Of a stretch of 21,700 nucleotides of DNA, positions 3,684 through 15,837 are shown one piece after another (within the stretch, counting starts at the first letter, position 1; each line of letters opens with the position of its first letter). Source of the DNA: a virus; the IMG/VR virus record IMGVR_UViG_3300043446_004799, positions 1 through 21,700 of that record; one strand, written 5' to 3'. The position numbers and the translations under genes are program-made. The notes under the pieces were generated by a model, which was given only the letters and a program-made list of their open reading frames with translations, was not told where the DNA came from and ran no database searches.

Positions 3684-5812
3684 TGGAATTACTTGAATCA
3701 AAATCTCTATTGGCCAAATTGATGGCGACAGAAAATCTTGTTGTTGAACAACGTCCAGTTCAAACAGCATCATTTGATGTTAAAAATAGGATTTTAACTT
3801 TGCCAATTTTGGATAAAAATATCTCTAGTGCTCTTTATGACCTATTTACTGGTCACGAAGTTGGTCATGCTCTATACACTCCCATCGAAGGAATGTTGAA
3901 AGTTAGAGAATTGAAAATCAATAAAGATGTTGCCAATGTGGTTGAAGATTCCCGCATCGAACGAAAAATCAAATACAAATATCCTGGTCTAAAAAATTCT
4001 TTTGCCAAAGCATACAAAGAGCTTATGGAAAAAGATTTCTTTGGTGTCAAAGGAACCGATATCAATAAGATGAATTTTTTGGATCGTATTAACCTGCATT
4101 GCAAAGGTGGCGCAGCTCTACGTATTCAATTCAATGATGAAGAAGTGGTTTTACTCAATGAAGTAGAAACCACCGAAACCTATGATGATGTTATCGAGGT
4201 TTCCAAAAAAATCATCGATTATATGAAGAAACAAATTGAATTGGAAGAACAGAAAAAGGCCAAAGCAAAAGCTGAACATAGTGATGAACAAGATGAAGAA
4301 GATTATGAAGAAGTCGAATTCGATGATGATGGTGAACCGTTAGAACAAAAGGAAGAACAGTCAGCTAGCGGTGATAGTGGCGAAGATGAGGATAAGGAAG
4401 ATTCTGATAAAGAAACTGAAAAAGGTCAAAAAGCATCCGACCAAGATGGTAAGGATGAACTAGATAAAAAACTTGATGAGCAAATTCGTTCACACACAGA
4501 TGAAGCATTCAAGAAAAATGAACAACAGTTGTTTGATACAAGTATTTCAAATATCATTTACACAAACATTCCAAATCTAGATTATAAACAAGTCAACGAC
4601 TTCAAGGTAATCTGGAAAAGATATAAGGAAGAAAATTTTTCCATTTCAACACCAGAATTTATAAAAATTCGAAATGAAAGCAACAAAGTGGTTTCATATC
4701 TTGTCAAAGAATTTGAACTACGCAAAAATGCCGACCAACTAAAACGTGCAACAGTTGCCAAAACTGGTGATTTGAATATGTCTAAAATTTATTCATATAA
4801 ATTCAATGAAGATATTTTCAAAAAGGTTTCGGTTGTTCCTGGTGGCAAGTCACATGGATTGGTTATGTTTTTGGACTGGTCAGGTTCAATGTGTGACCAT
4901 ATTGGTAATACAGTAAAACAATTAATCAACTTGGTATTGTTTTGTAAGAAACAAAACATTCCTTATGAAGTGTATGCTTTTGTTGAAGATACTGACACCA
5001 AAATGTCTGTGGCACGAGCTGCACCAAAAGGAAATGACCTATACACAAAGCCTTATGCTGCAATGAACTTGTTGTCATCACGTATGAACAGTTCAGAATT
5101 CACATATGCGTGTTCAGCACTGGTTCACATGTCTGGTTTGGGTTCAACAACTAGATTGTATTTGCCTTATTGGATGCATATGCAAGGCACACCCTTGAAT
5201 GAAGCCATCATTCACGCCATGTCAATTGTTCCAGAATTTCAGAAACAAAACAAGTTACAAATTGTAAACACAATTTTCCTGACCGATGGTGAAGGACATA
5301 CATTGAATCGTTACTACGATCCATTGAATATGTCGGGGTCTCATTATGGTTCTTACTACAGCGATTACACAACACACATCAAGTGTGACCGTTTAGTTAT
5401 CCGTGATACCGTCACCAAACATGAAGAAAGAATTGATTTGCGTGAACGTGACTCACAAACAAATGCTTTGATTCGTTTGTTAAAAGCTAGAACCAAATCA
5501 AACGTTGTTGGTTTCTATGTGATTAATGGTAGAGATTTCAACCGTAAGGTCTATCAATGGTTTCCAAAACAATTTAACCACGAAGAAATGAAAGAAAATT
5601 TCCGAAAAAATCAATTCACCATCTTGGAGAACACAGGATATGATGAGTATTATATCTTGCGGTCAAATAGCCTAGATACCGATGATGATTCGTCTTTTGA
5701 GGTTAAAGAAAATGCAACCTTTAGAGGTATTGCATCCGCATTTACCAAATACAATAGTGGTAAACACAACAGTCGAGTTATCTTGAATCGTTTTATTGGA
5801 TTAATTGCATAA
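3683..5812 (+). CDS. VWA-domain protein with N-terminal zinc metallopeptidase motif
   Basis: This 709-residue protein has an N-terminal zincin signature HEVGH at 58-62 with a downstream NVVEDSRIE (85-93) that probably supplies the third ligand. A long, very acidic and probably disordered linker spans about 185-275. A C-terminal von Willebrand A domain has the MIDAS motif DWSGS at 398-402, a later GTPLNEA and TDGEG near 534-538. The layout recalls CobT-like and phage 'peptidase' proteins that work with MoxR/CobS-type AAA+ ATPases. Such an ATPase is encoded at 14959. The substrate is unknown. Both active-site motifs look intact. Confidence 0.85.
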   Translation: MELLESKSLLAKLMATENLVVEQRPVQTASFDVKNRILTLPILDKNISSALYDLFTGHEVGHALYTPIEGMLKVRELKINKDVANVVEDSRIERKIKYKYPGLKNSFAKAYKELMEKDFFGVKGTDINKMNFLDRINLHCKGGAALRIQFNDEEVVLLNEVETTETYDDVIEVSKKIIDYMKKQIELEEQKKAKAKAEHSDEQDEEDYEEVEFDDDGEPLEQKEEQSASGDSGEDEDKEDSDKETEKGQKASDQDGKDELDKKLDEQIRSHTDEAFKKNEQQLFDTSISNIIYTNIPNLDYKQVNDFKVIWKRYKEENFSISTPEFIKIRNESNKVVSYLVKEFELRKNADQLKRATVAKTGDLNMSKIYSYKFNEDIFKKVSVVPGGKSHGLVMFLDWSGSMCDHIGNTVKQLINLVLFCKKQNIPYEVYAFVEDTDTKMSVARAAPKGNDLYTKPYAAMNLLSSRMNSSEFTYACSALVHMSGLGSTTRLYLPYWMHMQGTPLNEAIIHAMSIVPEFQKQNKLQIVNTIFLTDGEGHTLNRYYDPLNMSGSHYGSYYSDYTTHIKCDRLVIRDTVTKHEERIDLRERDSQTNALIRLLKARTKSNVVGFYVINGRDFNRKVYQWFPKQFNHEEMKENFRKNQFTILENTGYDEYYILRSNSLDTDDDSSFEVKENATFRGIASAFTKYNSGKHNSRVILNRFIGLIA

Positions 5813-8695: not shown

Positions 8696-9337
8696 TTAAG
8701 CAACAGCCAAGCGAATAACCTTGGCCATTTTCTTGCCGTGAGCAATATATCCGATAACCGGCACGGTTTTGTCATAGCAAGCACGGCAGCTCAAGCACTT
8801 ACCGCCTTGCTCTGGTGCTTGGCATACTGTAACACCAGCAGGCACAGCAGCGCCAGCAGGAATGATGGTTGAACCATGCACGCCTTTGGTGTATGAGCCA
8901 TCCACAGCATCAGAGCTGGGGCGCACCATTACATTATCCAGTGCTTGCATTTTAGCAATGATAGCCTGGAATTTTGGAAACTTGTACATGCGGGTGGGCA
9001 ACCAGTGCTTGGTAGCAGGGGTTGCTTGCATCACCTGGAGCATTTTCTCTGCCAAGCCAATAGCGTACATGTCGCCGCTATCAAACCAGCGGAAATGGGT
9101 TTGCTTTTTGAGCTCTTGGATCATAGTAGCTACCCAGCTATCTTCCTGCCATGCAGCTTTATTGTCAGCTCGCACGGCTTTGGTATCGGGGAAATTGTAG
9201 CAACCAGTGGTAGCATAGCAACCAGAGCAAGCAGGGACCAATTGACCGTCAGGACCTACCGAACCGGGGCAGGTTTCAACAGCTTGCAAGGACCAGCTCT
9301 TGGTGCCAAGCTTAGAGGTTTTGCTAACTTTATTCAT
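8696..9337 (-). CDS. GP88-like cysteine-rich phage protein
   Basis: The 213-residue protein has an N-terminal cysteine cluster (C23, then C37-x2-C40-x5-C46 within PACSGCYATTGC), a core FRWFDSGDMY and HWLPTRMYKFP, a PSSDAVDG loop, and a C-terminal cluster C172, C181-x2-C184-x2-C187. This matches my memory of the phage GP88 family (mycobacteriophage gene 88 type), whose function is unknown; metal or iron-sulfur binding is likely. CAGGAG precedes the ATG, a promoter lies at 9366-9393 and a terminator at 8611. Codon use is more GC-rich than in the plus-strand genes to the left. Confidence 0.8.
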   Translation of the reverse strand: MNKVSKTSKLGTKSWSLQAVETCPGSVGPDGQLVPACSGCYATTGCYNFPDTKAVRADNKAAWQEDSWVATMIQELKKQTHFRWFDSGDMYAIGLAEKMLQVMQATPATKHWLPTRMYKFPKFQAIIAKMQALDNVMVRPSSDAVDGSYTKGVHGSTIIPAGAAVPAGVTVCQAPEQGGKCLSCRACYDKTVPVIGYIAHGKKMAKVIRLAVA

Positions 9338-9365
9338 TTTCGCTCCTGTTTTTTACTATGGTTGT

Positions 9366-9393
9366 ACTATATCACACCTGGCGGGAATGGCAA
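9366..9393 (-). promoter_or_regulatory. Phage-type promoter for the GP88-like gene
   Basis: On the minus strand TTGCCA (9393-9388), a 16-bp spacer and TATAGT (9371-9366) precede the GP88-like gene by about 29 bases. An ACTAAAGT box (9407-9400) sits six bases upstream of the -35 element. The layout matches promoters at 13266 and 14903. Confidence 0.8.
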
Positions 9394-9409
9394 GTGTAAA
9401 CTTTAGTAT

Positions 9410-9541
9410 TCAAGCCACCAGCTGGAGTATTAGCTGGGCACCTTTGGTGCAGGTGTTAGCGCAAGCGCTTGCCACCGTCAGGACAGCTGTGTTATAATAT
9501 GCGCCCACCAAGGCACCGGTTATGAAAACAAAAGCATTCAT
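9410..9541 (-). CDS. Small hydrophobic protein, 43 aa
   Basis: The ATG overlaps the stop of the gene before it (TAATG). The 43-residue product (MNAFVFITGALVGAYYNTAV at the start) is hydrophobic throughout and probably crosses the membrane once, with two cysteines in SACANTC. No family is recognised. A plus-strand promoter-like sequence lies inside it at 9469-9498, so part of this coding call could be coincidental. Confidence 0.5.
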   Translation of the reverse strand: MNAFVFITGALVGAYYNTAVLTVASACANTCTKGAQLILQLVA

Positions 9542-9642
9542 TAGAACGGTCTCCAATAGAATAAGTCCAAGACAATTACAACCAGAGCAAGCACGTATAC
9601 GGTGCCCATTGCCCAAGCCGTCAAGCGGTGAAAATCAAGCAT
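9541..9642 (-). CDS. Very small membrane protein, 33 aa
   Basis: AAAAGGAC six bases before the ATG is the same ribosome-binding pattern used by the other genes of this minus-strand block. The product is 33 residues with a single hydrophobic helix (MGTVYVLALVVIVLDLFYW). It is coupled to the 43-residue gene by a TAATG overlap, so the two membrane peptides may act together. No family is recognised. Confidence 0.55.
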   Translation of the reverse strand: MLDFHRLTAWAMGTVYVLALVVIVLDLFYWRPF

Positions 9643-9666
9643 TTTTTGTCCTTTTGAAAATTATTT

Positions 9667-9687
9667 GCTGGCAATATTTCAGCCAGC
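9667..9687. repeat. Small hairpin between minus-strand genes
   Basis: GCTGGC and GCCAGC form a 6-bp stem with a 9-base loop in the 71-base gap between the Ala/Lys-rich gene and the tiny membrane gene. A 13-base palindrome GGGATC-C-GATCCC lies at 9695-9707. Neither is followed by a T-run, so they are more likely processing or regulatory elements than terminators. Confidence 0.4.
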
Positions 9688-9713
9688 GGCTTCGGGGATC
9701 CGATCCCTCTGCC

Positions 9714-10049
9714 TTAAGCGCTTGCTTTGCGTGCCATGATAGCAGCAGCAATAGCGTTATCTTCCGCACCGTATTTGGTGACGGTGCCCTTAGAAGGACG
9801 CTTAGCAGCCTTTTTTGCTTTGGTGCCAACAGCACCAACCTGCTTCGAGAGCAGCTTAGCAAGGCGTGCTTCTGCCTTAGCAATTGCTGCAGCACGTTTA
9901 GCTTCAGCACTGGCAAGCTTGTCAGCCTTAGCAGCTTCACGCTCTGCCTGCACCTTAACACGGAGAGCAGCAACCAATTCCTTGGTAGCTTTCAGGGTTG
10001 CTACAGCGCTTTTCAATTCAACAGCCAGGGGGGAGAGAGCTTTTGTCAT
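9714..10049 (-). CDS. Ala/Lys-rich coiled-coil protein, 111 aa
   Basis: The ATG at 10049 is preceded by AAAAGGACA. Residues about 10-75 are a continuous Ala/Lys/Glu helix (ELKSAVATLKATKELVAAL, EAKRAAAIAKAEARLAKLL), followed by a basic linker (KAKKAAKRPSKG) and a short C-terminal element (GAEDNAIAAAIMARKA). This resembles small phage nucleoid- or DNA-associated proteins in composition, but no homologous family is recognised. Several overlapping readings on both strands are shadows created by the Ala-rich repeats. Confidence 0.7.
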   Translation of the reverse strand: MTKALSPLAVELKSAVATLKATKELVAALRVKVQAEREAAKADKLASAEAKRAAAIAKAEARLAKLLSKQVGAVGTKAKKAAKRPSKGTVTKYGAEDNAIAAAIMARKASA

Positions 10050-10099
10050 AAAATGTCCTTTTCAATTAACATGGATGGATTCTAACCTAAAATTGCCGA

Positions 10100-10342
10100 T
10101 TAGGCAACCTGAGAACTTTTTTCTTCCAGCATTCTGCTCAAGATATATTTTGCACGGTTGAGCTCTTTCCGTGCCTGCTCTTGGGTTTGAGCAGTATTGC
10201 AAGCAATGAGCTCCTGACAATCGGACAGCATGCTCATCACCACCATTTCCAAACCTACGTGCTTGGCTGTGAAGCTTTGCATGTATTCGGATTGGATGGT
10301 AGCTTCTGAAATACCGTAGCACTTGCTTTCAAATTCCGTCAT
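10100..10342 (-). CDS. Hypothetical helical protein, 80 aa
   Basis: I use the ATG at 10342, preceded by AAAGGACGCAGGA. A longer in-frame start at 10438 would include the promoter at 10379-10406. The product starts MTEFESKCYGISEATIQ and ends in a helix (QARKELNRAKYILSRMLEE). Two further cysteines lie in MLSDCQELIACN. No family is recognised. It is the first gene of the minus-strand block. The bases encoding its C-terminus carry a 16-base sequence repeated at 10542-10557. Confidence 0.7.
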   Translation of the reverse strand: MTEFESKCYGISEATIQSEYMQSFTAKHVGLEMVVMSMLSDCQELIACNTAQTQEQARKELNRAKYILSRMLEEKSSQVA

Positions 10343-10378
10343 TCCTGCGTCCTTTCGCTTTGTTTTCAATATGAGTGT

Positions 10379-10406
10379 ACTATAACACACCTGGCAGGAC
10401 TGGCAA
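10379..10406 (-). promoter_or_regulatory. Phage-type promoter, start of minus-strand operon
   Basis: TTGCCA (10406-10401), a 16-bp spacer and TATAGT (10384-10379) read on the minus strand, about 36 bases before the first minus-strand gene. The spacer GTCCTGCCAGGTGTGT closely resembles that of the promoter at 9366-9393 (TTCCCGCCAGGTGTGA). No ACTAAAGT box is seen upstream. Confidence 0.78.
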
Positions 10407-10452
10407 GCATTATCGGCAAAGTCCAGCATTCCGGTCAACTATTCCAGGACGC

Positions 10453-10481
10453 TTGCCAACCAGCCCCAGCTATGATATAGT
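10453..10481 (+). promoter_or_regulatory. Divergent phage-type promoter
   Basis: TTGCCA (10453-10458), a 17-bp spacer and TATAGT (10476-10481) point right, 46 bases from the divergent minus-strand promoter. The first 100 bases downstream contain no convincing gene, only a GTG-started 20-codon reading at 10507, so the immediate product may be a leader or small RNA. The interval 10343-10664 otherwise holds only regulatory sequence. Confidence 0.7.
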
Positions 10482-10523
10482 ACAACCATTCGAAAGCAGG
10501 ACTGGGGTGGACGCTGGGGCTGG
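10460..10523. repeat. 11-bp inverted repeat flanking a promoter -10 region
   Basis: CCAGCCCCAGC (10460-10470), lying in the spacer of the promoter at 10453, is repeated inverted as GCTGGGGCTGG (10513-10523) about 32 bases past the -10 box. The arms are too far apart for a simple transcript hairpin because transcription begins between them. A two-site operator with looping is one explanation. Confidence 0.55.
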
Positions 10524-10541
10524 GCGTTATAATAAAATTAA

Positions 10542-10557
10542 AACTTTTTTCTTCCAG
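10542..10557. repeat. 16-base direct repeat copy
   Basis: AACTTTTTTCTTCCAG is identical to 10114-10129, the 3' end of the first minus-strand gene. A related GAGAACCTTTTTCTT at 10568-10582 matches 10111-10125 in 14 of 15 bases. The copies bracket the divergent promoter region and may mark a duplication or recombination joint. Confidence 0.6.
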
Positions 10558-10585
10558 TTGCAATTGTGAGAACCTTTTTCTTATA

Positions 10586-10614
10586 TTGCCAAAACCTGAA
10601 AAATCGGTTATAAT
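10586..10614 (+). promoter_or_regulatory. Phage-type promoter
   Basis: TTGCCA (10586-10591), a 17-bp spacer and a perfect TATAAT (10609-10614) lie about 50 bases before the small gene at 10665, which has an AAGGAG ribosome binding site. Confidence 0.78.
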
Positions 10615-10664
10615 GGATGCTTAATTTGAAAACAAAAGCACTACAATGCAAGGAGTAATACTAA

Positions 10665-10841
10665 ATGTCTGGTATGAAAAGAATATTGGAACGATTGATT
10701 GACCTAGAAGAAATGCTGTATACTTTTGGTCTCAGCTATGAACCCTTCATACAGGAATGCAAACTTTTGTGTGAATTAGGGTTTGCCGATGAAGTCCAAT
10801 GTATTATTTGGGAGTTTGAGAACCATTGTTTTAACCAGTGA
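10665..10841 (+). CDS. Small hypothetical protein, 58 aa
   Basis: AAGGAG precedes the ATG at 10665 by nine bases and a good promoter lies upstream. The product is mostly helical (MSGMKRILERLIDLEEMLY) with four cysteines, including ECKLLCELGF. No family is recognised. It stands alone, immediately left of the probable origin, so a link with replication is possible but unproven. Confidence 0.65.
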   Translation: MSGMKRILERLIDLEEMLYTFGLSYEPFIQECKLLCELGFADEVQCIIWEFENHCFNQ

Positions 10842-10928
10842 GATGCTCTGTAATGCTTAATGTTTATGCCGCTGAGATGCTAAGACTTAATTCTTACAGG
10901 TATCTTGCGATTCATAATGCGAAATATT

Positions 10929-11047
10929 ACACTTTTTTGCACTTTTTGACACTTAAGCATTCCAAAGCACTTCAGGTAAGATTCAGGTAAGATTTTATGC
11001 AAAAGTTATCCACAGCATATCCACAGGTTTATGCACACCTCCAGGTG
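10929..11047. other. Probable replication origin with DnaA-box array
   Basis: An AT-rich stretch with ACTTTTTT/ACTTTTT repeats (10929-10955) is followed by two exact 11-base direct repeats TTCAGGTAAGA (10971-10981, 10982-10992). Four DnaA-box-like 9-mers come next: TTATGCAAA (10995), TTATCCACA (11006), ATATCCACA (11017) and TTATGCACA (11029). The second and fourth match TTATNCACA exactly; the other two differ by one base. Starts are 11, 11 and 12 bases apart, so all face the same side of the helix. A CACCT-CC-AGGTG palindrome closes the array. The layout resembles a bacterial or plasmid origin. The interval 10842-11189 has no convincing gene. Confidence 0.65.
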
Positions 11048-11059
11048 AGTGTATACTAC

Positions 11060-11075
11060 GAAAACTTTAGTTTTC
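11060..11075. promoter_or_regulatory. Palindromic ACTTTAGT box
   Basis: GAAAACTTTAGTTTTC is an inverted repeat with 7-bp arms around TT. Its reverse strand reads GAAAACTAAAGT, one base from the GAGAACTAAAGT box found near other promoters. It lies 55 bases before the -35 element at 11131, between the DnaA-box array and that promoter. Confidence 0.55.
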
Positions 11076-11130
11076 TATTTGGTTCTCAGCGAATACTTGA
11101 CCATTTTGCTGTAATACTATAGCAATATGC

Positions 11131-11158
11131 TTGCCAAAACCTAGGATTCCTGTATACT
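11131..11158 (+). promoter_or_regulatory. Phage-type promoter
   Basis: TTGCCA (11131-11136), a 16-bp spacer and TATACT (11153-11158) are followed by the leader TTGATTGATAAGGAG (11169-11183), which contains the ribosome binding site for the gene at 11190. Confidence 0.78.
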
Positions 11159-11189
11159 TGCGTACATGTTGATTGATAAGGAGAAACCG

Positions 11190-11369
11190 ATGACATTAAC
11201 CAAAAATGATTACATTGCTCTGATTATTGAGCATATTGTAAACCAAGGTTATAAATCTTCTGATGATTTTGTTAACTATATTACTATGATTCTTCCCATG
11301 ATGAATACGGAAGAATTACAAGGTGAATTAGAAGCATTGGAAGATAATGCTATTGGTCTAAGTCAGTAA
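11190..11369 (+). CDS. Small helical hypothetical protein, 59 aa
   Basis: I choose the ATG at 11190 because AAGGAG lies seven bases before it; an in-frame ATG at 11166 would lie at or before the probable transcript start. The product begins MTLTKNDYIALIIEHIVNQG and ends acidic (ELQGELEALEDNAIGLSQ). No family is recognised. It is the first gene right of the probable origin, so expression may respond to replication. Confidence 0.7.
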   Translation: MTLTKNDYIALIIEHIVNQGYKSSDDFVNYITMILPMMNTEELQGELEALEDNAIGLSQ

Positions 11370-11382
11370 AAAGGTATTAATT

Positions 11383-11634
11383 ATGACATTTTTTGTTGAA
11401 ATTGCAACTTTAGAATTACTGAAACAGTATTCTAGTCCACGTAATACTTCCTTATTCAAAGGTGTGCCGGTTGAATTGCGTGACCGAGTGCTTTCGTATT
11501 ACAATGCTATGGGTGTGAAAGTGAAACTAAGGTATCGTGGTCCTCGAAAACATAATACTTTTCGTTCACCAAACACCAAGCAATCGTCATGCTTGATGCA
11601 GGATGCTAAAACTTTTGCAGTATACATGAGGTGA
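11383..11634 (+). CDS. Basic hypothetical protein, 83 aa
   Basis: AAAAGG lies nine bases upstream of the ATG. The N-terminal half is helical (LELLKQYSSPRNTSLFKG) and the C-terminal half basic (KVKLRYRGPRKHNTFRSPN), ending QDAKTFAVYMR. I recall phage proteins with this GPR-H-TF...AKTFAVY-R ending, unassigned in function. Nucleic-acid binding is plausible from charge only. Confidence 0.68.
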   Translation: MTFFVEIATLELLKQYSSPRNTSLFKGVPVELRDRVLSYYNAMGVKVKLRYRGPRKHNTFRSPNTKQSSCLMQDAKTFAVYMR

Positions 11635-11642
11635 GCAGGTAG

Positions 11643-11680
11643 ACTTTAGTTCTCCATGTAAAGGTATTGAGAACTAAGGT
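11643..11680. repeat. 12-bp inverted repeat made of two GAGAACTAARGT boxes
   Basis: ACTTTAGTTCTC (11643-11654) and GAGAACTAAGGT (11669-11680) pair over 12 bp with one G-T, around a 14-base loop. It lies nine bases after a stop codon and seven bases before a -35 element, without a T-run. Each arm is a copy of the box seen upstream of other promoters, so a dimeric regulator site is as likely as an RNA hairpin. Confidence 0.65.
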
Positions 11681-11687
11681 ATACAGG

Positions 11688-11715
11688 TTGACAATTCAGG
11701 TAGTTCTGGTATAAT
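11688..11715 (+). promoter_or_regulatory. Near-consensus promoter
   Basis: TTGACA (11688-11693), a 16-bp spacer and TATAAT (11710-11715) directly follow the inverted repeat at 11643-11680. A TTAATTGATGAGG leader then leads to the gene at 11743. Confidence 0.82.
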
Positions 11716-11742
11716 TGGTTTTTTAATTGATGAGGTAAAAAA

Positions 11743-11880
11743 ATGAATGACGAATTACAGGTAATCTGGGAACAGCTAAATGGTGTTCTTTATGACTTGA
11801 CCGAAGGTGCGCCTGCTGATGCTGTCGAAGCAGTGCAGGATTGTATCAATCGGTTGGAGCAATTAGGTATTGGTCAATAA
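11743..11880 (+). CDS. Small acidic hypothetical protein, 45 aa
   Basis: GAGG lies seven bases before the ATG, and a strong promoter lies upstream. The product looks like one or two helices (MNDELQVIWEQLNGVLYDL, then AVEAVQDCINRLEQLGIG). Its size and promoter context support it; no family is recognised. Confidence 0.65.
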   Translation: MNDELQVIWEQLNGVLYDLTEGAPADAVEAVQDCINRLEQLGIGQ

Positions 11881-11899
11881 TCAAAAGAGGTAAAAAATT

Positions 11900-12166
11900 A
11901 TGACTTTTCGTGATGACATTTTGGAAATGGTTGATGAAATGATTGATTGTGACGGTGAGGTGCGTATTGGCAACCTGCTGTTTTCACGCTCTGAGATTGT
12001 CAAGCGTTTGGATCCTACTGCTTATCGCATTATGGTCAATGAGATAATCGATTCTCAAATTGAAGATTTGGAATATGAAATCGACCATTTGGATCCAGAT
12101 TTGGATGCAGATGAGATAGCAGATTTGCAAGAGCGAATCGCTGAATTGCAAGATGTTTCTATTTGA
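11900..12166 (+). CDS. Acidic coiled-coil protein, 88 aa
   Basis: The ATG has AGAGG ten bases upstream. The protein is acidic with a long C-terminal helix (IIDSQIEDLEYEIDHLD, ADEIADLQERIAELQD) showing heptad-like spacing of hydrophobics, probably a coiled coil. The N-terminal half contains GEVRIGNLLFSRSEIVKR. No family is recognised. It lies in a run of small genes served by the promoter at 11688. Confidence 0.72.
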   Translation: MTFRDDILEMVDEMIDCDGEVRIGNLLFSRSEIVKRLDPTAYRIMVNEIIDSQIEDLEYEIDHLDPDLDADEIADLQERIAELQDVSI

Positions 12167-12178
12167 TAGGAGTTGGAT

Positions 12179-12442
12179 ATGTGTGAGGTAGAAGATTTTG
12201 GCATGTTCACGGATGCTGGTAACGGCGCCGTGCAAGCTATCGTTGAAGGTGCCATTTCCAATGATTTGTCATGGAATGATGTGGTAGACTGTTTGCAGGC
12301 ATTATCGGAACGTGAAGGTTTCGAAGAAGCAATGGATACCGAGGTGCGTGAATGTGTGTATCGAGCACTTGGTTTCTCGGATGACTATGACGGTCAACCT
12401 GATGAAGCGCAGGAATGGTATGATTTTGACCCCGATTGTTAA
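12179..12442 (+). CDS. Acidic hypothetical protein, 87 aa
   Basis: AGGAG lies six bases before the ATG at 12179, which is better than a TTG two codons earlier. The product is very acidic, with four cysteines and an ending rich in Asp, Tyr and Glu (DDYDGQPDEAQEWYDFD). The middle is helical (ISNDLSWNDVVDCLQALSE). No family is recognised; DNA mimicry is possible but only a guess. Confidence 0.72.
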   Translation: MCEVEDFGMFTDAGNGAVQAIVEGAISNDLSWNDVVDCLQALSEREGFEEAMDTEVRECVYRALGFSDDYDGQPDEAQEWYDFDPDC

Positions 12443-12457
12443 TATTAGGAGATTGCT

Positions 12458-12679
12458 ATGAAGGTAAAATTGCCGTTTGATTGTATGATTTTGGATACGG
12501 AACCAGTTGAGGTAAAAAATCGGTTCTCTGGTGAATCATGTATGCTCACGCCCGAAGCGGTAGCAGTATATGATACCATCATGGGTTGTGAAATGGTCGG
12601 TGATTATAAAAAAATGCGTAAGGGACTGGATTGGTTTCGCCAATACTTTCCCGAAGAATATATGATTCTATTGGATTGA
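12458..12679 (+). CDS. Conserved small phage protein, 73 aa
   Basis: AGGAG precedes the ATG by eight bases. The product contains VKNRFSGESCMLTPEAVAVYD and KGLDWFRQYFPEEYMILLD. I recall this NRFSGE-C-L-P-AVAVYD...GLDWFR-FPEEYM-LLD pattern from many phages, including T4-like ones, always as an unassigned protein. A compact helical domain is likely. It sits in the same small-gene operon. Confidence 0.75.
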   Translation: MKVKLPFDCMILDTEPVEVKNRFSGESCMLTPEAVAVYDTIMGCEMVGDYKKMRKGLDWFRQYFPEEYMILLD

Positions 12680-12686
12680 GATAATT

Positions 12687-12860
12687 ATGGATAACGAAAC
12701 CTATTGGTTTGCTCGTGGTTATTATGACGGCAGAAATGCCGGTGTTGGTGATGACGCCTTGCGTGATATGTTGACCGATAACAATTGGTCAGCATATATG
12801 CGTGGTTATGGCACCGGCGTGACGGACTATTGCAACAAAGAATTGGCGGAGATGGAATAA
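12687..12860 (+). CDS. Small GYYDGR-type phage protein, 57 aa
   Basis: The 57-residue product has a repeated aromatic/glycine pattern: WFARGYYDGRNAGVGD in the first half and YMRGYGTGVTDYC in the second, a layout I associate with a common phage family of unknown role. The ribosome binding site is weak, so coupling to the upstream gene seven bases away is likely. Its stop overlaps the next start (TAATG). Confidence 0.65.
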   Translation: MDNETYWFARGYYDGRNAGVGDDALRDMLTDNNWSAYMRGYGTGVTDYCNKELAEME

Positions 12861-13060
12861 TGGCAAAACGTAAATTCAATAAAACCGATATGGAAACCAT
12901 ATTGGCACAATTATTTGAGAATAATTTTCAAAAACATGGTGACCATGATATTGTGATTGAATACTTACTTTCGCAATATGTTCACCTATTTGGTGAAATC
13001 TCACGCTCTGCTCAAGTAGAGCAACTGATTGGTTTTAAGAATTTGGCAAAGGAAATATAA
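12860..13060 (+). CDS. Hypothetical protein, 66 aa
   Basis: The start is the ATG in the TAATG overlap at 12860, preceded by GGCGGAGATGG; a longer reading from 12785 runs through the previous gene and is rejected. The N-terminus is basic (MAKRKFNKTD) and the remainder helical (METILAQLFENNFQKHGD, VEQLIGFKNLAKEI). No family is recognised. It overlaps the next start by one base. Confidence 0.68.
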   Translation: MAKRKFNKTDMETILAQLFENNFQKHGDHDIVIEYLLSQYVHLFGEISRSAQVEQLIGFKNLAKEI

Positions 13061-13251
13061 TGGAAAATGTGAATACTACCTTTTGGGATATGATGGTATT
13101 TGAGTTGCAAGGCAATAAATTCAATAATTATGGATTGAATGTAATTGCTGAAACCCAATGCCGTGGTGAAGTTAGTGAACCAAAACAATATCTAAAATTG
13201 ACTGAGCGGTTATACACACCGACAGCAATGGAGAGATTTGCTGCAAAGTAA
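13060..13251 (+). CDS. Hypothetical protein, 63 aa
   Basis: The gene begins in a TAATG overlap and ends inside a tandem repeat preceding the next promoter. The product begins MENVNTTFWDMMVFELQGNK and has a basic/polar C-terminus (LKLTERLYTPTAMERFAAK). One cysteine is present. No family is recognised. Confidence 0.65.
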   Translation: MENVNTTFWDMMVFELQGNKFNNYGLNVIAETQCRGEVSEPKQYLKLTERLYTPTAMERFAAK

Positions 13252-13266
13252 TACTAAAGTAATACT
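13245..13266. repeat. 11-bp tandem repeat at a promoter
   Basis: AAAGTAATACT occurs twice in direct succession (13245-13255 and 13256-13266). The second copy is the ACTAAAGT-box/-35 junction of the promoter at 13266, and the first overlaps the preceding stop codon. One copy of AAAGTAATACT also precedes the promoter at 14903. Confidence 0.7.
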
Positions 13267-13294
13267 TGCCAAACCTATGGGTTTCCTGTATAAT
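13266..13294 (+). promoter_or_regulatory. Phage-type promoter with upstream ACTAAAGT box
   Basis: TTGCCA (13266-13271), a 17-bp spacer and TATAAT (13289-13294). ACTAAAGT (13253-13260) lies five bases before the -35 element. The gene at 13319 follows after a GAGG ribosome binding site. Confidence 0.83.
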
Positions 13295-13318
13295 AGTGGT
13301 TCAATTTGTGAGGTGAAT

Positions 13319-13852
13319 ATGGAATTTAGTAATGATAAACCAACCAAAAGCGCATTGTATTTGGTTGACCGTGACAAGCAAGGCAAATGGTATCGTTGGT
13401 ATGATGCAGACACCGACACCTGGTCGATGTGTGGTTCTGATATGAATGAAGCATTGGCTAATCGTGACAAAGTATCGCCTGTTGGTTTCTTCCCATGGGT
13501 TGGTCCTTTGACTGGTCCTAAATTCAATCCTAACGTGCCCGTTCAGGTTGTCACCGAAGATGCACCAAAGGCACCAAAACAGAAAAAGGTCGCCCGTAAG
13601 ATGGCACGCCAGCGCACCGCTGATGTAAAACCAAAACTGGTTATTTCCAAAGTTGGCAATACCAAAGTTGGTTCTATTGTCAAAGGCAGCAAGACTGTGC
13701 ATACTGATGGCACCGTGTTCTTCCGTGAGGATCGACAAAAGTGGATCGCCATGTGGAATGGCAAACAAGAAGCAGCACGACCAACTGCTGAAGCATGTTT
13801 GGCATTCTTGAAGAAAAAATATAACTTTGATGGTATTGTTATTAAGGAGTAA
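13319..13852 (+). CDS. Basic protein with AP2-like C-terminal segment, 177 aa
   Basis: The start at 13319 follows the promoter and a GTGAGGTG ribosome binding site; the longer reading from 13238 would begin upstream of the promoter. The N-terminal part is rich in Trp and Tyr (GKWYRWYDADTDTWSM). A very basic linker follows (KAPKQKKVARKMARQR), and then a C-terminal unit with FFREDRQKWIAMWNGKQEAA and CLAFLKKKYNFDG, similar to AP2/integrase-type DNA-binding strands (FxRDRQKWxAxW). I infer a DNA-binding protein. It opens a new operon. Confidence 0.7.
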   Translation: MEFSNDKPTKSALYLVDRDKQGKWYRWYDADTDTWSMCGSDMNEALANRDKVSPVGFFPWVGPLTGPKFNPNVPVQVVTEDAPKAPKQKKVARKMARQRTADVKPKLVISKVGNTKVGSIVKGSKTVHTDGTVFFREDRQKWIAMWNGKQEAARPTAEACLAFLKKKYNFDGIVIKE

Positions 13853-14958: not shown

Positions 14959-15837
14959 ATGATTGATGTGAAATTTGTGAATGGCAAGTATGTGGCAGTT
15001 ATCAACGGCAAAACCGTTAAGCGTAGCAAAAAAGAGCACATGGATTATGTGATTCGCAAAGCACAAAGCGAATCTGCCGATGCTGCACCAGTCCAAGAAT
15101 CCCGTTTCACTATCAACGAACGCTTTGGTTTTGTGACCGATATGGTTGCAATGCTCGCTTCAGGCGCACAAGCATCCGTTGTTGTGACTGGTCCTGGTGG
15201 TCTTGGTAAGTCCTTCACCGTCACCAAAGCATTGGCAGATTGTGGCATGACCGATGTATCATTGCTCGAAGATTTTGCTGTTGGCACCGTCCTTAAAACT
15301 GCCAAAACCTTCCGTGTTATCAAAGGTTATTCTACACCCAAAGGTCTATACCGCACCTTGTATGAAAACAAAGATGGCGTTATTGTGTTCGATGATTGTG
15401 ATTCCGTTCTCAAGGATCCAGTATCGTTGAACCTGCTCAAAGGTGCGCTTGATTCATATTCTCGCCGCATTATCTCATGGCGTGCGGATATTCGTGATGA
15501 AGATTTGCCTACATCATTCGAATTCAAAGGTCGTGTGGTGTTTATCTCCAACCTGTCCTCATCCAATATCGACCAAGCAATTATCACCCGTTCAATGGCC
15601 GTGGATTTGTCCATGACCAACAAGCAAAAGATTGAACGCATGAAGCACTTGCTGTCCTCTGGTGAATTCATGCCTGAGTTTGACAAGACTATCAAGGCTG
15701 ATGCTATGTCGTTGATTGAACGCCTGCAAGACCAAGTCAAAGAGTTGTCGCTTCGCACACTCATTCAGGTAACCAAGATTCGCCAAAGTGCAGGTAAAAA
15801 TTGGGCTAACTTGGCAGAATATACAATCTGTGGTTGA
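14959..15837 (+). CDS. AAA+ ATPase (MoxR/CobS-like)
   Basis: The 292-residue protein has Walker A GPGGLGKS at 78-85, Walker B VIVFDDCD at 141-148, a sensor-1 asparagine in VVFISNLS (N198) and a likely arginine finger in ITRSMAVDL (R211). The first 50 residues form a separate small basic domain. The C-terminus is helical. Single-domain ATPases of this kind often partner with a VWA protein; one is encoded at 3683. I infer a remodelling or chaperone function on an unknown target. It has its own promoter and strong ribosome binding site. Confidence 0.85.
   Translation: MIDVKFVNGKYVAVINGKTVKRSKKEHMDYVIRKAQSESADAAPVQESRFTINERFGFVTDMVAMLASGAQASVVVTGPGGLGKSFTVTKALADCGMTDVSLLEDFAVGTVLKTAKTFRVIKGYSTPKGLYRTLYENKDGVIVFDDCDSVLKDPVSLNLLKGALDSYSRRIISWRADIRDEDLPTSFEFKGRVVFISNLSSSNIDQAIITRSMAVDLSMTNKQKIERMKHLLSSGEFMPEFDKTIKADAMSLIERLQDQVKELSLRTLIQVTKIRQSAGKNWANLAEYTICG

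Follow-up and report, generated by a model that had tools for sequence, protein, structure and literature searches.

T4-type phages serve as the textbook example of DNA replication that does without host DnaA. Their origins of the oriF/oriG type combine a promoter with an unwinding region and are primed from an R-loop; that R-loops take part in the replication of T4 is well established, as reviewed in PMC5333043. Clusters of exact or near-exact DnaA boxes, in the same orientation and about one helical turn apart, are found at E. coli oriC, plasmid oriV and phage P1 oriR, and the intergenic datA locus of E. coli contains some five DnaA boxes. For T5-type phages, DnaA boxes have been reported (PMC13250531), and a software prediction places them in a Pseudomonas phage as well (PMC11512268). 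Reading of a host cell-cycle regulator by phages is known for CtrA, whose sites are clustered at promoters of alphaproteobacterial phages in connection with lytic deferment, and no positional clustering of DnaA sites was found in the phages of that study (PMC9437464). Our searches of the open-access literature found nothing on DnaA boxes in T4-like phages, and priority is not established. Here, we describe an array of predicted DnaA boxes that is carried by a freshwater group of T4-like phages, and show that it lies ahead of a predicted early promoter.

The window analysed was a complete IMG/VR record of 21.7 kb; because of this limited length, uniqueness and skew were examined in six near-complete relatives of 166-180 kb instead. 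Direct blastn comparison of window positions 9000-13500 with named phages gave no match. The T4-like character proposed in an earlier sequence-only reading of the window was borne out by a T4-type RNase H and a RIIA-like protein encoded in the window, by gp41-type helicase and gp59 loader genes in six relatives, and by the terminase of relative G001, which shows 54-56% identity to terminases of Synechococcus T4-like phages. The window also encodes a peptidase family typical of cyanophages and, judged from this gene content, the phages are cyanophage-like relatives of T4. The records of the relatives are classed as linear, without end repeats. Permuted (two-piece) tmRNAs of the beta type (Rfam RF01850, 126 and 110 bits) were detected in G001 and G003 (L140 18843-19209 and L157 9532-9895, with the tags ANDSQFALAA and ANDEKFALAA), along with about 25-28 tRNA genes, mostly in one cluster. 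Since the relatives carry beta-type tmRNAs, their hosts are probably betaproteobacterial, and the Flavobacteriaceae host indicated by the binning of the sole matching MAG contig was set aside as a probable mis-binning for the same reason.

Analysis of the window revealed four co-directional predicted DnaA-type boxes on the plus strand, spaced by 11, 11 and 12 bases, two of them exact and two with one mismatch, at precisely the positions and spacings reported by the sequence-only reading. Box 1, TTATGCAAA (10995-11003), has one mismatch, is the weakest of the four and is absent from the closest relative, L004. Box 2, TTATCCACA (11006-11014), is exact, is identical to R1 of E. coli oriC, and reads TT(A/G)TCCACA in 10 of the 10 sequences of alignment A1. 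Box 3, ATATCCACA (11017-11025), has one mismatch and is kept in that alignment as (A/T)TA(T/C)NCACA, while the exact box 4, TTATGCACA (11029-11037), is kept as TT(A/G)T(G/A)CACA.

Relatives were gathered by searching with the nearby AAA protein, which yielded 53 related loci, and 20 intact arrays, window included, were tabulated. Equivalent arrays were found in many IMG/VR relatives, always in the same orientation and heading a plus-strand early block. In the ten closest sequences (alignment A1), the box letters are 98% conserved as against 64% for the flanks. A tally of 83 in-phase boxes from 19 contigs, partly chosen by similarity to the consensus, showed position 2 and the CACA end to be nearly invariant, position 1 to be T in 69 and A in 14, and position 5 to vary freely (C60 G11 A8 T4); as some of these boxes were found by consensus similarity, the column-wise alignment A1 is the cleaner evidence. 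Position 5 is the one that DnaA ignores, and on the aligned letters the pattern of constrained and free positions fits the requirement of DnaA. Spacings of 11 or 12 bp account for 42 of the 56 cases, and longer spacings are phased less strictly. Conservation in relatives had been proposed as a check on the array, and with the boxes kept across the clade the objection from lack of conservation falls away. One variant array (L042 2598-2651) has two boxes inverted relative to the rest, and its boxes are weaker. No array was found in the near-complete relative G002 (L022) or, despite ample flanking sequence, in the partial contigs L025, L038, L044, L047, L048, L050, L053 and L055, which indicates that it is not indispensable.

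Using at least two exact boxes within 100 bp as the criterion for a cluster, the array was the sole exact-box cluster in four of the six near-complete relatives (G001, G003, G004 and G005); G006 has the array plus one further loose pair, and G002 has no exact-box cluster at all. The array is thus nearly unique per genome in the near-complete relatives, and the suspicion that similar clusters might be scattered elsewhere did not hold. No protein with a Bac_DnaA_C domain was found in nine relatives, so that a phage-encoded DnaA was rejected as the reader and the host DnaA is the one expected to read the array.

Two further features that the sequence-only reading had placed to the left of the boxes fared less well. 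The two exact 11-mers TTCAGGTAAGA (10971-10992, plus strand, starting at 10971 and 10982) are both present in the window and, as a repeat, are specific to it; L004 lacks them and others have a single GTCAGGTAAAG copy, and for want of conservation they were ruled out as origin repeats. The AT-rich stretch proposed as an unwinding element lies at about the 80th-93rd percentile of meltability within the window, in most relatives the left side melts less readily than average, and the 3' side is often easily melted; an unwinding element on the left is therefore unsupported.

Other elements, which the earlier reading had missed, are kept around the boxes. A CTAAG element, CTAAGACTT (10880-10888, plus strand), precedes them, and all 15 aligned relatives, the box-less L022 among them, share its CTAAG without change. 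Two TGCGA repeats 12 bp apart (10906-10910 and 10918-10922, spanning 10906-10922, plus strand) have counterparts in relatives, likewise between CTAAG and the boxes. The CTAAG/TGCGA stretch was also considered as a structured RNA and rejected, as no consensus pairs were seen. In G002, the syntenic region (L022 3560-3760) holds CTAAG and five TGCGA in 120 bp, the densest such stretch of that genome, yet no boxes.

On the other side of the boxes, also overlooked before, lies a strong predicted sigma70-type promoter, TTGCCA-16-TATACT (11131-11158, plus strand), 94 bp after the array. A TTGCCA-type sigma70 promoter match was found 42-94 bp 3' of 19 of the 20 arrays, the exception being L054, which runs off its contig, and alignment A1 shows no variation in the -35 hexamer. 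In these genomes, about 2% of random positions have such a promoter within 100 bp, and among 122 unselected viral arrays 10 have one within 150 bp. Between array and promoter, a conserved stretch, TTGACCATTTTGCTGTAATACTAT (11097-11120, plus strand), has similar counterparts in L004, L017, L020, L034 and L042.

The strand switch noted close to the array is real: minus-strand ORFs reach 10438 and plus-strand genes run from 10665. The genes around the array change. The first small gene behind the promoter (11190-11369, plus strand, 59 aa from the ATG at 11190) is not a constant neighbour, and the family of the gene at 10665-10841 precedes the array in the window, L006, L009 and L012 but follows it in L004, L034, L035 and L042. 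The array is downstream of the AAA gene instead in L031, L032, L045, L054 and L056, and the first three of these place it among different genes, which favours a function of the site as such over control of a single gene. As neighbour genes swap while the array persists, the site appears to be kept for itself and not for one gene, and CTAAG element, TGCGA repeats, boxes and predicted promoter form a putative composite locus that is retained while the genes beside it change. The AAA-type ATPase itself (window 14959-15837) belongs to PHROG 1250, a family found widely among T4-like phages, in some cases under the annotation thioredoxin. A role for this protein as a DnaA- or DnaC-like loader was considered and dropped, as no PDB structure was matched by sequence and the PHROG gives no function.

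The position of the array before an early promoter suggests use or sensing of the host replication switch by these phages. The reading that we favour, tentatively and at slightly less than even likelihood, is that the array is a recruitment site for host DnaA heading the early region, most likely as a transcription-coupled replication start. Several DnaA molecules would bind side by side to the co-directional, roughly helically phased boxes and remodel the DNA or aid its opening; with the CTAAG/TGCGA elements and a host-RNA-polymerase promoter 42-94 bp further on, an early transcription-coupled start could result, in which the transcript would furnish an R-loop or primer and the gp41/gp59 replisome of the phage would then take over. 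The number, phasing and orientation of the boxes, the composite site and its independence from adjoining genes all look like signs of an origin, and several DnaA-type boxes beyond chance are what a DnaA-dependent origin displays. The sigma70-type promoter predicted 3' of the array corresponds to the promoter that fires into a T4-type transcription-primed origin, although this is a sequence match only. The likeness to T4 oriF/oriG extends to the strength of the promoter and to the gp41/gp59 of the relatives, whereas T4 has no comparable DnaA-box pair and here the boxes and CTAAG/TGCGA precede the promoter. Compared with oriC, oriV and P1 oriR, no phage Rep gene, host-type origin context or skew step was seen; the AT-rich side and the promoter lie 3' of the boxes, and the phages have their own T4-type helicase and loader.

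Other observations speak against a replication start at the array. Five near-complete relatives showed no step at the array in GC skew, the check suggested by the sequence-only reading, or in strand-corrected GC3 skew, skew being a proxy for starts where nearly all phage genes sit on one strand. With a helicase and a loader of their own, the phages do not need DnaA for helicase loading; a clear left unwinding element is wanting, some relatives lack the array, and the similar arrays of T5-like and T7-like phages occupy pre-early or left-end regions that are not known to be origins. Of the host-dependent origin first proposed, the conserved, near-unique DnaA-type array thus stands and the skew step, the 11-mers and the left unwinding element do not, which leaves an origin function possible but unproven. 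Somewhat more tentatively still, this T4-type clade, unlike T4 itself, may start its replication or early programme through host DnaA at a composite site, tying infection to the replication state of the host, and recruitment beside the earliest promoters may be convergent with T5-like and T7-like phages. A conserved array in a whole cyanophage-like T4 clade would show the host initiator drawn into the T4 life style, the start of replication in uncultured T4-like phages would become directly testable, and array and composite locus together offer a marker by which these and other DnaA-reading phages can be found.

A close rival, which we rank second and regard as possible though less probable, is that DnaA acts here as a transcription factor, with array-bound DnaA repressing or activating the early promoter and the phage sensing ATP-DnaA or the cell-cycle state of its host. 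The frequency of the promoter after the arrays, set against random positions and unselected viral arrays, speaks for it, and by sequence match the boxes lie within regulatory distance of the promoter, as in DnaA-regulated promoters. The arrays of the T5-like phage DT57C and the Berlinvirus P483 are likewise in pre-early or left-end regions, and the CtrA-site phages, which respond to a different regulator, provide a precedent (PMC9437464). Against promoter control, the genes that come first after the promoter lack conservation, the distance between array and promoter (42-94 bp) does not hold to a helical phase across the clade, and four to six boxes exceed the number usual for a DnaA-regulated promoter.

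Titration of DnaA is unlikely. In this model, multiplying phage genomes would soak up DnaA and halt new rounds of host chromosome replication in the manner of datA, and the several predicted high-affinity boxes per genome, with exact TTATCCACA in most arrays, would amount to hundreds of added sites at many genome copies per cell. A single incoming genome, however, brings few sites, and titration would work without helical phasing, a common orientation or a set position ahead of a promoter. The IHF-type site WATCAANNNNTTR was not found in window positions 10840-11170, so that, unlike datA, the array lacks such a site there, and it is promoter-linked and phased.

Less likely again is that the boxes have a reader other than DnaA, either a phage protein or a different host protein, or that they act in DNA entry or packaging like the T5 injection stop signal. 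The adjoining TGCGA and CTAAG elements show that further proteins may bind, and the injection-stop region of T5 is reported to contain DnaA boxes (PMC13250531). The boxes nevertheless show the constrained and free positions of DnaA sites, and in the near-complete relatives the array is internal and promoter-linked, whereas in T5, an unrelated phage type, the boxes belong to the terminal-repeat, first-step-transfer DNA. A chance cluster without function can be dismissed: single boxes with at most one mismatch do occur at chance level in the window (37 found, 36.7 expected), but four boxes, two of them exact, within 43 bp were seen in 0 of 300 first-order Markov shuffles, about 1.5e-4 such clusters are expected and conservation across the clade already refutes it, so that the cluster is not due to chance.

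Named phages were also searched for exact pairs within 25 bp, and none was found in T4, S-PM2, S-CREM1, PhiW-14, DLP6, HTVC008M, XacN1 or KVP40. Phage P1, chosen to serve as positive control for this pattern, gave no match and was discarded; of its two boxes at 62891-62900, which are spaced by 9 bp, one has a mismatch. In unrelated named phages, tandem predicted boxes were observed in early, pre-early or end intergenic regions, unannotated in the records shown: in Escherichia phage P483 (L333 1440-1575), as TTATCCACA boxes in an early intergenic region of DT57C (L334 1500-1591; DT57C 5486-5576) and in Lactococcus phage 949 (L335). Six further phages (L095, L096, L098, L100, L103 and L104) encode a distant GP88 homologue and carry box arrays that precede the GP88 gene by a few hundred bp; among them, L098 encodes a T7-like primase-helicase, and in L104 the boxes are arranged as spaced pairs.
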